Part shown: positions 14,977 to 17,919 of the stretch, one piece after another | Position numbering within the stretch: the stretch's first letter is position 1 | How the letters are laid out: each line of letters opens with the position of its first letter | DNA from: Limosilactobacillus kribbianus | GTDB taxonomy: Bacteria > Bacillota > Bacilli > Lactobacillales > Lactobacillaceae | Assembly: GCF_026413145.1 (NCBI RefSeq) | Contig: NZ_JAOVYZ010000012.1 | Location: 1-40,109 of the forward strand | Direction: 5' to 3' | DNA length: 40,109 bases | Position numbers and translations under genes: made by a program | Notes under the pieces: generated by a model | Database searches by the model: none | Told to the model about the DNA's origin: nothing | Seen by the model: only the letters and a program-made list of their open reading frames with translations

Positions 14977-15445
14977 TGTTGTATTCTTGTATTGTTGAAA
15001 GATATGGACCTGGGTAAGTCTTTAAACTGCCTAGGTTCCTCCAATGAGAACTACTTTTAGTAAATTACAGAAGTCCGTAGACGGCTGCTGCGTATACTCA
15101 CAAATCGCAACTCTCTATCTACGTACAAGCGGCGGAAGTCCGGTAGCCAAGCCGACACAATGGTGGCAGATGACCATAGTTCCGCATTGAGACTATCAAC
15201 CTTAACGACCAAACAACTAACTACAATCTGGGTTTTTGAATATGATCTTTACGATTCCTCCTTTTCAAAAGTATGTGGGATTACATTTCAGCGCCGCTCT
15301 GATAGTCTCAGGCGTCCATGCAATGAGCAGAAGAGTCCGTGATCTAACTCAACGGCTAGAGGGTCACAAGATAGAACACCGACGCTGACGTTACAGGAGC
15401 TGGTGGAAAACAGCGACCGGGTGCGACGGTTTACGTGTTCTATAT

Positions 15446-15516
15446 ATAAGCATAGTTCAATTGGCAGAACGGCAGACCCCGACCCTGCTAATCACGGTTC
15501 GAGTCCGTGTGCTTAT
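15446..15516 (+). tRNA. Phage tRNA with unusual anticodon loop (apparent CCG)
   Basis: Complete cloverleaf of 71 bases: acceptor ATAAGCA/TGCTTAT (7 perfect pairs), D-arm GTTC/GAAC with A and GG in the loop, T-arm CACGG/CCGTG with loop TTCGAGT. The anticodon arm is odd: stem GCAGA/CCTGC has an A-C mismatch at the bottom, and the loop CCCCGAC lacks the universal U33. By position the anticodon is CCG (Arg), but the decoding role is doubtful. No CCA is encoded. It could be a real tRNA or a tRNA-like domain of the surrounding RNA. Confidence 0.7.
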
Positions 15517-15618
15517 TTTGACATGGGAAAATTCAATTAAGGAGTTGGAAAGTTCCCTTCTTAATAGTCTTTTGATAACACACACCACGTCTTACTCGCT
15601 TAGACGGGCCTAGCGAGT

Positions 15619-16188: not shown

Positions 16189-16704
16189 ATGGAACTGAAA
16201 GAACTAACCGAAAAGACGTTAGTGTTATTTAATTCTAAGAACACAGCCGAACTGATTAAGAAGTTACCGAGTTATTGGAATGATAATGATACTAAAGCTA
16301 AATTTAAGGAATTAGTCGGTGATTTAAGTATTGATTGGCTCCAAAAGATTTTTCAGTATTACGAAGCGGACCGCAAGGATAAGAAGCAAGATTATACGCC
16401 TACAAGTCTAGCAAAGTTAATGGCAAGCCTAGCTCTACGTAACGATGAGAAACACATTATTGATATGTGTGCTGGTAGTGGTGCTTTAACTATTCAATGT
16501 TGGAACCTCAATCATGATATTGAAGCTGAATGCCTAGAATTTGATGAAAAGGTAATTCCAATTTTATTGTTTAATCTAGCAGTGCGGAATATTAAAGCAA
16601 AAATTTATCAGATGGATGTGTTGCAACAAGAAGTCACTAATAGTTGGCGAGTCGTAACAGGGGATGAATTCGGAAAGGTGATTGAAAATGGCGACAACAA
16701 TTAG
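16189..16704 (+). CDS. N6-adenine DNA methyltransferase, N-terminal (SAM-binding) part
   Basis: 171 residues carrying the SAM-binding half of an HsdM-like N6-adenine methyltransferase: QDYTPTSLAKLMASLA (motif X region) and motif I DMCAGSGALT at about 102-111. The frame ends (GKVIENGDNN, stop 16702-16704) just where motif IV should follow; that motif lies in the next frame. Start ATG 16189 with aggagga upstream. Either the gene is broken by a one-base shift, or the enzyme is made as two coupled polypeptides. No restriction enzyme or specificity subunit is adjacent, so it is best seen as an orphan phage methylase, possibly an anti-restriction device. Confidence 0.85.
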   Translation: MELKELTEKTLVLFNSKNTAELIKKLPSYWNDNDTKAKFKELVGDLSIDWLQKIFQYYEADRKDKKQDYTPTSLAKLMASLALRNDEKHIIDMCAGSGALTIQCWNLNHDIEAECLEFDEKVIPILLFNLAVRNIKAKIYQMDVLQQEVTNSWRVVTGDEFGKVIENGDNN

Positions 16705-17668
16705 TAATCCACCATATAACATGAAGTGGCAGCACCCATTCTTTGCTCAGTCACAAGAACGATTTCTTCTTGGTGTGCCACCAGAAAGCAATGCTAATTA
16801 TGCTTTTATCTTAACGGCGCTATCTAAACAGGATAAGGCCGTTTTCTTATTGCCTAATGGCGTGTTAAGTACTAACAACAAAGAAGAACAAGCGATTAAA
16901 GCAAGCCTAGTTGAAAAGAACTACTTAGAAGCAGTAATTAGCTTACCTGATCGAATGTTTGAAAGTACCAGTATTCCAACTTCACTACTAATCTTCAATA
17001 AGAAAAAGCAGACATCCAACATTTTAATGGTTAATGCCTCTTCATTGGCAACAGAAGAAGTACGAGAACAACGAGGACAGGTTGGCAGCAAGTCACACAC
17101 TAACCGTGTTTACAAGAAGAAGGTCAACGTATTAAGTGACGATGCTATTAATAAGGTTATGTCGTTATTAGACAAGCCAGCAGATGAGCCGGGCCTATCA
17201 AAAGTCGCTTCAATTGAAACCATTAAGGGACAAGATTATATCTTAACTCCTAATCGTTACATTGAGATGAAAAAGGAAACGGTTCAACACTCATCGCTTG
17301 AAAAGCTTGCTGAACAATTGAACCGGGTATCTGCTGAAAAGGGTGCCGTCAAGCTAACTATCAATAAGAAGATGGCTAGTGATCTTGGATTAATGCCACT
17401 AATCAAATCACTTCAAGAAGGAACGCAAACCAGCAAAGAATTAAACGAGCAATTCAAAGATGATGGAATAGCGCTTAGCGATGAAAGCATAGTTACTTTG
17501 ACTAACAGTAAGACTTTTAAGATTGAAGTTAAGAAGTGGGATAAGTTACCAGCGATTGTTGTTATGTTTGCTCAGATGTGGAAGCAATTAATGATCACTT
17601 GCAACAACGAAGAGAACCGCTACTTAATGGAACTAAAAGATATTATGCTTGAACGTTACTTCAAGTAA
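16688..17668 (+). CDS. N6-adenine DNA methyltransferase, catalytic (NPPY) part
   Basis: Begins (ATG 16688, 326 residues; the frame is open from a TTG at 16682) with MATTISNPPYNMKW, so catalytic motif IV NPPY is at residues 7-10. The block continues with HsdM-type features (VFLLPNGVLSTNNKEEQAIKA and SLPDRMFESTSIPTSLLIFN). The last 200 residues are helical and could serve in DNA recognition. GGAAAGGTGA seven bases upstream of ATG 16688 would be an excellent RBS, and the overlap with the upstream ORF is 17 bases, so separate translation is possible. A +1 shift would fuse it with the upstream half. Confidence 0.85.
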   Translation: MATTISNPPYNMKWQHPFFAQSQERFLLGVPPESNANYAFILTALSKQDKAVFLLPNGVLSTNNKEEQAIKASLVEKNYLEAVISLPDRMFESTSIPTSLLIFNKKKQTSNILMVNASSLATEEVREQRGQVGSKSHTNRVYKKKVNVLSDDAINKVMSLLDKPADEPGLSKVASIETIKGQDYILTPNRYIEMKKETVQHSSLEKLAEQLNRVSAEKGAVKLTINKKMASDLGLMPLIKSLQEGTQTSKELNEQFKDDGIALSDESIVTLTNSKTFKIEVKKWDKLPAIVVMFAQMWKQLMITCNNEENRYLMELKDIMLERYFK

Positions 17669-17706
17669 TAGCATCCCCATAAAACTATTTGGGGTCAGTC
17701 AGGCAA

Positions 17707-17776
17707 CAAAAAAATGGGAATCACCTCCCAAGTAAATTGTGAGGAGGTGATTCCCATGAATAACTTAAACTTGACA
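17707..17776 (-). ncRNA. Predicted antisense RNA (type I antitoxin candidate)
   Basis: The minus strand holds a near-consensus promoter, TTGACC (17811-17806), 17-base spacer, TAGAAT (17788-17783), predicting a start at about 17776. The transcript would run into the 15-bp dyad, which on this strand is followed by TTTTTT (17713-17708), a perfect terminator. The RNA would be about 70 bases, fully complementary to the RBS, start codon and first codons of the hydrophobic peptide, the geometry of type I antitoxins. Confidence 0.7.
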
Positions 17777-17818
17777 CTACTAATTCTATTACTCATTCTG
17801 ATTGAGGTCAAGAAGTAG
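17756..17818 (+). CDS. 20-residue hydrophobic peptide, type I toxin candidate
   Basis: ATG 17756 to TAG 17816-17818. The peptide starts MNNLNLTLL, continues with a run of Leu and Ile and ends LIEVKK: one short membrane helix with a polar N-terminus and a basic C-terminus, the general build of type I toxins. The Shine-Dalgarno GGAGGTGA is ideal and eight bases from the ATG, but both are sealed in a 15-bp perfect hairpin (17714-17757). An antisense promoter and terminator cover the same bases. I do not recognise the peptide as Fst, Lpt or a Hol_Tox protein. It lies between the methyltransferase and terminase genes. Confidence 0.72.
   Translation: MNNLNLTLLILLLILIEVKK
17783..17811 (-). promoter_or_regulatory. 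Antisense promoter within peptide gene
   Basis: Minus strand TTGACC, 17 bases, TAGAAT: five of six matches in both boxes at optimal spacing. It lies within the codons of the hydrophobic peptide, so peptide sequence and promoter constrain each other. Confidence 0.75.
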
Positions 17819-17919
17819 GACTGACCCCAAGGAGGCGCTTGCCTCTTCGAACCAAGCGCCTCCACTGCAACAGAGAGCATACATAACATATAGATAGAAA
17901 GGTGGTGTGGTGATATGCC

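Follow-up and report, generated by a model that had tools for sequence, protein, structure and literature searches.

The window analyzed here, a 40,109-nt contig (C10, taken in its entirety) of the 2.1 Mb genome of Limosilactobacillus kribbianus, contains a compact element that is probably a self-contained type I toxin-antitoxin-like module, a member of a new family of morons carried by phages and prophages of Lactobacillaceae. There is a strong case for the architecture of this element and for its membership in a family of recurring modules; a type I toxin-antitoxin function appears likely, judging from the sequence features described below.

The element consists of a 20-codon ORF for a hydrophobic peptide embedded in three stems, with a candidate promoter on the opposite strand (Table 1). 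The ORF (17756-17818), the Shine-Dalgarno (SD) sequence, the P1 dyad, the P2 hairpin, the minus-strand TTGACC-17-TAGAAT and the run of six T that were reported in the original prediction are exact to the base, both when read directly and when re-derived by script; the third hairpin, P3, is an addition to that description. The SD sequence of the peptide ORF, AGGAGGTGAT, is complementary to 16S rRNA. Read on the minus strand, P2 precedes a T run, with six unpaired T in the window, a terminator-like arrangement. At the 5′ end, the CCCC of the GCATCCCC box can pair with GGGG at 17691-17694, giving an alternative 5′ hairpin; the folding energy of the 5′ segment in the window is −7.7 kcal/mol. A sense promoter consistent across the copies examined was not found, nor was a sense-strand terminator with a U run within the element.

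Table 1. Parts of the module in the window (positions are those of the 40,109-nt contig).
Feature	Position	Strand	Basis or remark
Entire conserved element, GCATCCCC to CAACAGAG	17671..17875	+	Block common to clade-1 copies with differing flanks
GCATCCCC box, conserved	17671..17678	+	Sequence; CATCCC retained in clades 2 and 3
P1 clamp stem, 5′ strand	17689..17700	+	Pairs perfectly with 17819-17830 over 12 bp
P1 clamp stem, 3′ strand	17819..17830	+	Pairs with 17689-17700; script-derived, covariation
P2 hairpin, 5′ arm (intramolecular anti-SD)	17714..17728	+	15 perfect pairs with 17743-17757
P2 hairpin, 3′ arm	17743..17757	+	Includes the larger part of the SD, plus AT of the start codon
Shine-Dalgarno AGGAGGTGAT, 10 nt	17742..17751	+	Sequence
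ORF, hydrophobic 20-residue peptide MNNLNLTLLILLLILIEVKK, 20 codons and TAG	17756..17818	+	pN/pS 0.12; homologues in clades 2 and 3
Candidate antisense promoter TTGACC-17-TAGAAT	17811-17783 (17783..17811)	-	Place and spacing the same in 16/16 distinct ORFs
Putative antisense RNA, ~70 nt, ending in P2 and a U run	17707..17776	-	Inferred from promoter and fold
P3 hairpin, 17831-17841 / 17853-17863, 11 pairs	17831..17863	+	Directly 3′ of P1; no U run behind
Tail ACTGCAACAGAG, conserved in clade 1	17864..17875	+	Alignment A2

The principal evidence comes from RNA folding and covariation. The plus strand at 17677-17875 folds with −81.3 kcal/mol, compared to −43.2 (sd 3.9) for shuffled sequences (z −9.7), and the putative 72-nt antisense RNA (minus strand, 17776-17705) folds into one hairpin followed by U (z −5.0). 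In an alignment of 17 related rows that was fitted to the structure (A4), 96.9% of the 609 cells are paired, against 37-52% in slid versions of the same alignment. Compensatory changes in the stems of related loci, one of the observations by which the original prediction proposed to check itself, are found in all three stems: 20 of the 36 pairs show both-sided changes (8 of 10 in P1, 6 of 15 in P2 and 6 of 11 in P3), a level reached by none of 500 shuffles. When only clade 1 is aligned (MAFFT, 14 rows) and the structure derived from the window is applied, 5 both-sided pairs of 36 are obtained, with 97.0% paired and, again, 0 of 500 shuffles reaching this level. As established by sequence comparison, the sense RNA is predicted to form a 5′-3′ clamp (P1), an SD lock (P2) and a 3′ hairpin (P3), all of which covary.

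The conservation of pairing extends across three clades that differ in stem sequences and are constant in anatomy, that is, P1, P2, P3, the peptide and the minus-strand promoter. P1 and P2 are predicted in 13/13 representatives folded, in each of which P2 covers the SD sequence; part of the start codon is included in P2 in most clade 1 copies and in both clade 3 copies, and in L017, L021 and clade 2 the hairpin stops just short of it. P1 is perfect or near-perfect in the three clades despite unrelated sequence. Its 5′ strand is GGGGTCGGCT or GGGGTCAGTC in clade 1, TTAGGCATTGCC in clade 2 and GGGCGCCCGC in clade 3, give or take a neighboring base or two, and its partner is formed by the bases at or directly after the stop codon; departures from the clade-typical P1 are seen in L016, L017, L018, L022 and L120, with mismatches in L017 and in the second copy of L022. 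Within clade 1, P2 is re-paired in L016 and L017. The ORF of L016 starts (at 321) with TTG, the only such start among the 16 distinct ORFs, which coincides with a changed, still pairing base of P2. In clade 2 (L029, L051 and L120), and likewise in L031 of clade 3, the P2 loop contains an inner hairpin, CACAGCAAGCTGTG; the loop of this inner hairpin is CUUG when read on the minus strand, which fits the YUNR pairing motif as given in an excerpt of PMC6562991.

The peptide is 18-21 residues long across the family and hydrophobic, with a charged tail. Clade 1 peptides follow the pattern MN-x-[LI]-N-[FL]-TLLILLLILIEVKK; those of clade 2 are MTNFTLLILLLIIIEIKR, MSSYTLLILLLIIIEIKR and MSTFQLLILLLIIIEIKR, and those of clade 3 are MNQIIITLIILLLLIHEINK and MEEIIFAMIILLLLIHEINKK. 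In clade 1, with 11 distinct ORF DNAs, pS is 0.393 and pN is 0.048, giving pN/pS of 0.12 (pairwise, with the tree ignored), a value indicating purifying selection on the peptide. These 11 ORFs are invariant, even at synonymous positions, over their final five codons, where the −35 box falls; P1 or other signals might also explain this invariance. The pattern that the original prediction considered fatal to the toxin reading, with repeats conserved and the ORF lost, is the reverse of the one observed, in which the peptide is conserved and the stem sequences are replaced with pairing kept; the type I toxin-like architecture proposed there is upheld.

Searches of protein and RNA libraries placed the module in no family. 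Three clade-1 and three clade-3-type peptides matched 0 Pfam families at E ≤ 10 (queries as short as 20 residues approach what the method can handle) and had zero matches in NCBIfam; in PHROGs, the same six peptides were unmatched except that of L177, which hit phrog_5315, a family of unknown function, with E of 0.058. Four peptides were scanned with PADLOC, the only library to which the 18-residue clade 2 peptides were submitted (padded), and one peptide was compared with PDB sequences, in both cases with no match. With Rfam, no score within the element exceeded the gathering threshold, the best weak match having 18.5 bits against a threshold of 81.9.

Within the set of sequences searched, 15 viral contigs carry a total of 18 copies of the family, and 7 Lactobacillaceae genomes, some of them the same strains, contain a complete copy. 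Clade 1 accounts for 15 copies on 13 viral contigs, L022 being two copies in tandem and L009 and L016 sharing a contig; the viral copies of clade 2 are L051, L090 and L120, the latter on the same contig as L013. The exact hairpin pattern retrieved 7 viral contigs and a looser one 8, and a degenerate pattern for the end of the peptide retrieved 17 stretches, with L014, L019 and L020 rejected as chance matches. The clade-2 peptide pattern produced 88 stretches, with modules in L051, L090 and L120, the remainder being dropped after the script described below. The covariance model of clade 1 detected 6 of the 50 genomes of the genus at E ≤ 0.001, including one chance terminator (G316, L030), and reached the far relatives G262 (E 1.3e-13) and, among 397 sampled genomes of the family, G373 (E 1.1e-4). 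Copy counts are not independent because the elements of L090 and G262 are identical, as are those of L018 and G303.

Peptide profiles were run on 397 genomes of the family, 50 of the genus and 75 of the genus of G398. G398 probably belongs to Lactobacillus, given that 504 bp close to its element match a record of L. amylovorus at 95%. Of the 397 family genomes, 72 gave matches at E ≤ 10, most of which were weak; across the three sets, 8 genomes matched at E < 1e-3, namely, G000, G289, G303, G324, G262, G373, G398 and G758, 7 of which contain the entire anatomy. Most of these matches are true by construction, given that their peptides were already in the profile; two are new to it, L126 in G398, with the whole anatomy, and L177 in G758, without it. 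L126 is the best independent check of the family: it was found by the peptide only, and P1, P2, P3 and the promoter were then seen to be present. L177 (G758:C3:187978-188037; peptide MNDTILTLIVILLIIHEINKK) retains the 5′ box and the 5′ strand of P1 and has lost P2, the 3′ strand of P1 and P3; it is a decayed or differently regulated copy, which we count as decayed and not as support. In the order-level peptide search of 395 genomes, 5 matches were obtained at E ≤ 0.05, and the sole module among these was that of the window itself; L151 and L152, from two other families, are peptide matches without such structure, and the remaining two, L127 and L131, are described below.

A script that looks for a short ORF with an SD sequence, P2 and P1 gave 31 matches on both strands of 121 loci (1.05 Mb), most of which had been fetched with family patterns and several of which contain the same copy. 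Of these matches, 27 belong to this family and 4 are unrelated, and the antisense promoter is present in 0/4 of the unrelated ones; the known copies L023, L031 and L120 and the second copy of L022 were missed by the script. Several further candidates were discarded: L127 (G210) has a similar peptide and no such structure, the match in L131 lies inside a 579-codon open frame, L012, L030 and L032 are chance SD-hairpin or terminator matches, and L129 and L133 were rejected on inspection; L128 and L130-L150 were assessed by script alone. Nothing was found by blastn of the element against phages or plasmids, tblastn of a clade-1 peptide against plasmids, blastn of one clade 2 and one clade 3 copy against plasmids, or megablast of 24.9 kb of the window against phages.

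On the antisense side, a minus-strand promoter of the form TTGA..-17-TA...T is located inside the ORF, over the same codons and with the same 17-bp spacing, in 16/16 distinct ORFs (L177 is not among them). A single such promoter equals chance (1 found against a mean of 1.3 in shuffles). When compared with synonymous recodings, individual ORFs give P of 0.04-0.29 at the fixed site, a test picked after the site had been seen, and 0.04-0.71 for any site in the ORF; with P values in these ranges, support for the promoter is moderate and comes from its repetition in three clades. Behind P2, the measured copies of clades 1 and 2 have 4-7 T on the minus strand (7 in the window, 6 in L004, 4 in L016, 6 in L017, 7 in L029, 4 in L051 and 6 in L120), and in clade 3 no U run was found at this place. 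Given the promoter statistics and the pattern of T runs, we infer an antisense RNA with fair confidence for clades 1 and 2 and with little confidence for clade 3.

Apart from a toxin, the peptide might be a tightly dosed small membrane protein that functions in superinfection exclusion, holin adjustment or envelope signaling under the same lock and antisense RNA. We regard this as unlikely, if quite conceivable: the anatomy would be the same and most copies lie beside packaging genes, but locks of this strength on a 20-codon ORF mark toxins in the systems covered by excerpts of PMC6733600 and PMC6562991, and, according to an excerpt of PMC8309996, toxicity is known for hydrophobic peptides as short as this one, IbsC among them.

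The genomic setting points to a moron. In the window, the element is located between a DNA methyltransferase and the small terminase TerS (PHROGs); the methyltransferase (16189-17668) is divided between two overlapping ORFs with consecutive matches to phrog_6380 (3-116 and 126-381), and the second ORF has a similar counterpart in L007. Upstream of the methyltransferase, a Lacto-phage-1 RNA (Rfam RF03004, a family of unknown function; 15293-15367) and a tRNA-Arg (CCG; 15446-15517) are close neighbors. Elsewhere, PHROGs identifies as neighbors TerS and TerL in L006, an HNH/TerS-like protein in L003, HNH in L009 and integrase in L029; by reading, L007 and L013 resemble L006, and L005, L015, L018 and L022 resemble L003. 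Phage contig 2937151071_000007 carries a clade 1 copy amid terminase genes and a clade 2 copy near repressor-like genes. The placement in a phage late region that had been proposed for the window holds for most clade-1 copies and is no general rule; of the clade-2 copies, L029 adjoins integrase and L120 lies in a lysogeny-like region.

In clade 1, the block of similarity spans GCATCCCC to CAACAGAG, and the flanks differ. The junction GAAAGGTGGTGTGGTGATATGCC, at which the element of the window is situated, was located in 22 viral contigs; the element is immediately upstream in three of these (L009, L017 and L021) and is absent in the other 19, as judged from 330 nt upstream (88 nt in L166 and 203 nt in L173). 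L164 and L171 have the same methyltransferase end as the window and no element. These comparisons indicate that the module is an optional moron found at several phage sites rather than a packaging site. Other small RNA-like inserts occur near the same junction in other phages, namely, a Lacto-phage-1 RNA ~500 nt upstream in L159, a tRNA in L174, and unmatched tRNA-like sequences in L162 and L167; the junction looks like a hotspot for small morons.

It is accordingly highly improbable that the element is a DNA structure, be it a MITE-like mobile repeat or a packaging site, in which inverted repeats mimic RNA stems and the ORF is incidental. Inverted repeats are indeed present, terminase genes are near most clade-1 copies, and L022 contains tandem copies; the peptide, however, is under selection, the dyads are internal to the conserved block and their halves change together instead of being conserved, the junctions are mostly empty, one copy is integrase-side, and no target-site duplication is consistently seen in the flanks. 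The original prediction had named a mobile repeat or packaging site as its alternative, which the selected peptide, the empty junctions and the integrase-side copy contradict. Still less credible is a leader peptide or attenuator of a downstream phage gene, for which a short ORF amid competing stems directly upstream of phage genes would be appropriate, but the downstream genes vary (TerS in the window, and TerL, HNH or integrase elsewhere), the element has no sense-strand U-run terminator, and the peptide is a conserved hydrophobic helix with no run of a single regulatory amino acid.

Under the type I toxin-antitoxin interpretation, the module could work as follows. The sense RNA, made from a sense promoter or by read-through, would be closed by P1, with the SD sequence inside P2; the 5′ hairpin formed by CCCC and GGGG might hold the 5′ strand of P1 until the 3′ end is made, a step that is tentative because this hairpin is weak in L051 and L120 and the box is farther off in L013. 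Metastable stems act in this manner in the hok and aapA3 mRNAs (PMC6733600, excerpt). A short antisense RNA would start within the ORF and, in clades 1 and 2, end in P2, so that in these clades one hairpin would serve both as the translation lock on the mRNA and as the terminator of the antidote RNA. The antisense RNA, perfectly complementary to P2 and the initial codons, would anneal to the mRNA, which would thereby be blocked or destroyed. Should the antidote fail, through loss of the element or through heavy sense transcription on induction, some of the mRNA would be opened, and the peptide made from it would enter and harm the membrane. Targeting of the 5′ end would be nearer to the E. coli systems than to those of Bacillus prophages, in which pairing is at the 3′ end (PMC6562991, excerpt), and hokW-sokW offers a precedent for a role in phage release (PMC8621323, excerpt).

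On the best reading by analogy, the module would resemble aapA/IsoA or hok/Sok, with their locked mRNAs, most closely in its mode of action, with a peptide of Ibs size; we claim no common descent. In aapA/IsoA, much as predicted here, long-distance 5′-3′ pairing makes the full-length mRNA inert, hairpins sequester the SD sequence, a cis-overlapping antisense RNA is ~80 nt long, and stems show compensatory changes; the combination of long-distance pairing with SD sequestration is found in all 13 folded representatives of the present family and is accompanied by covariation. The differences are that in aapA/IsoA the anti-SD is distal in the full-length form and 3′ trimming is needed, whereas the lock formed here by P2 is a local one, distinct from P1, and that aapA/IsoA belongs to other bacteria, whereas the module described here is phage-borne; the sequences were compared only through family libraries. 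The hok mRNA contains a coupled leader frame and encodes a toxin longer than the peptide of the module, in which, in contrast, no conserved mok-like frame is present and L017 lacks an in-frame ATG in P2. The Sib antisense RNA spans the entire Ibs ORF; the putative antisense RNA of the module, in contrast, would cover the SD sequence, the start codon and the first codons, and no common sequence was seen. The likeness to hok/Sok, including the prophage-encoded hokW-sokW, would lie in the folded toxin mRNA, the metastable 5′ hairpin, the antisense RNA to the 5′ region, the prophage location and the membrane peptide (PMC8621323 and PMC6733600, excerpts). The likeness to Ibs/Sib of E. coli lies in an almost wholly hydrophobic peptide (19 amino acids against 18-21) and, putatively, a cis antisense RNA; IbsC, of 19 amino acids, is still toxic as a 15-amino-acid form (PMC8309996, excerpt).

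Among the systems of Gram-positive bacteria, the Fst/Lpt RNAI-RNAII (par) systems, including Lpt of Lactobacillus rhamnosus plasmids, likewise sequester the SD sequence of the toxin mRNA in an intramolecular stem-loop, but their toxins are 29-33 amino acids long, and contact between the two RNAs is through a common terminator loop and direct repeats instead of an SD hairpin (PMC8309996, excerpt). The earlier opinion that the peptide is not Fst, Lpt or Hol_Tox stands as far as tested: the motif APXXXGXXX of Fst, Lpt and SprA1, as given in the same excerpt, is absent, the window peptide having no A, P or G, and membership in Hol_Tox is disfavored by the lack of a Pfam match at E ≤ 10 for the six peptides of the clade 1 and clade 3 types, near the length limit. 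The Bacillus subtilis pairs txpA/RatA, bsrG/SR4, bsrE/SR5 and yonT/SR6 are prophage-borne and have a buried RBS or a near-perfect SD sequence, but pairing of the antitoxin with the toxin mRNA involves 100-140 bp at the 3′ end, and the toxins have 30-59 amino acids (PMC6562991, excerpt), compared to a putative antisense RNA of ~70 nt at the 5′ end and a peptide of 18-21 amino acids in the module. A description of such a system, or of the two peptide strings, was not found in the literature searched, a sample that largely excludes subscription papers.

More tentatively, and with considerable doubt, we suggest that these modules form a family in which one hairpin is both lock and terminator, with the clamp, the hairpin and the antisense RNA re-specified between clades and the peptide near-constant; orthogonal modules would then coexist in one phage (2937151071_000007), and phages might compete by mutual addiction or exclusion. 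If the toxin-antitoxin interpretation is true, a type I family with its own RNA architecture would be added for Gram-positive phages and for gut lactobacilli, and a 20-codon gene that is overlooked by annotation would prove findable through structure and covariation. It would also become testable whether a single hairpin serves both RNAs and whether such morons act in prophage stabilization, lysis timing or the exclusion of rivals. The small size and apparent orthogonality of the modules could help plasmid maintenance in laboratory lactobacilli.
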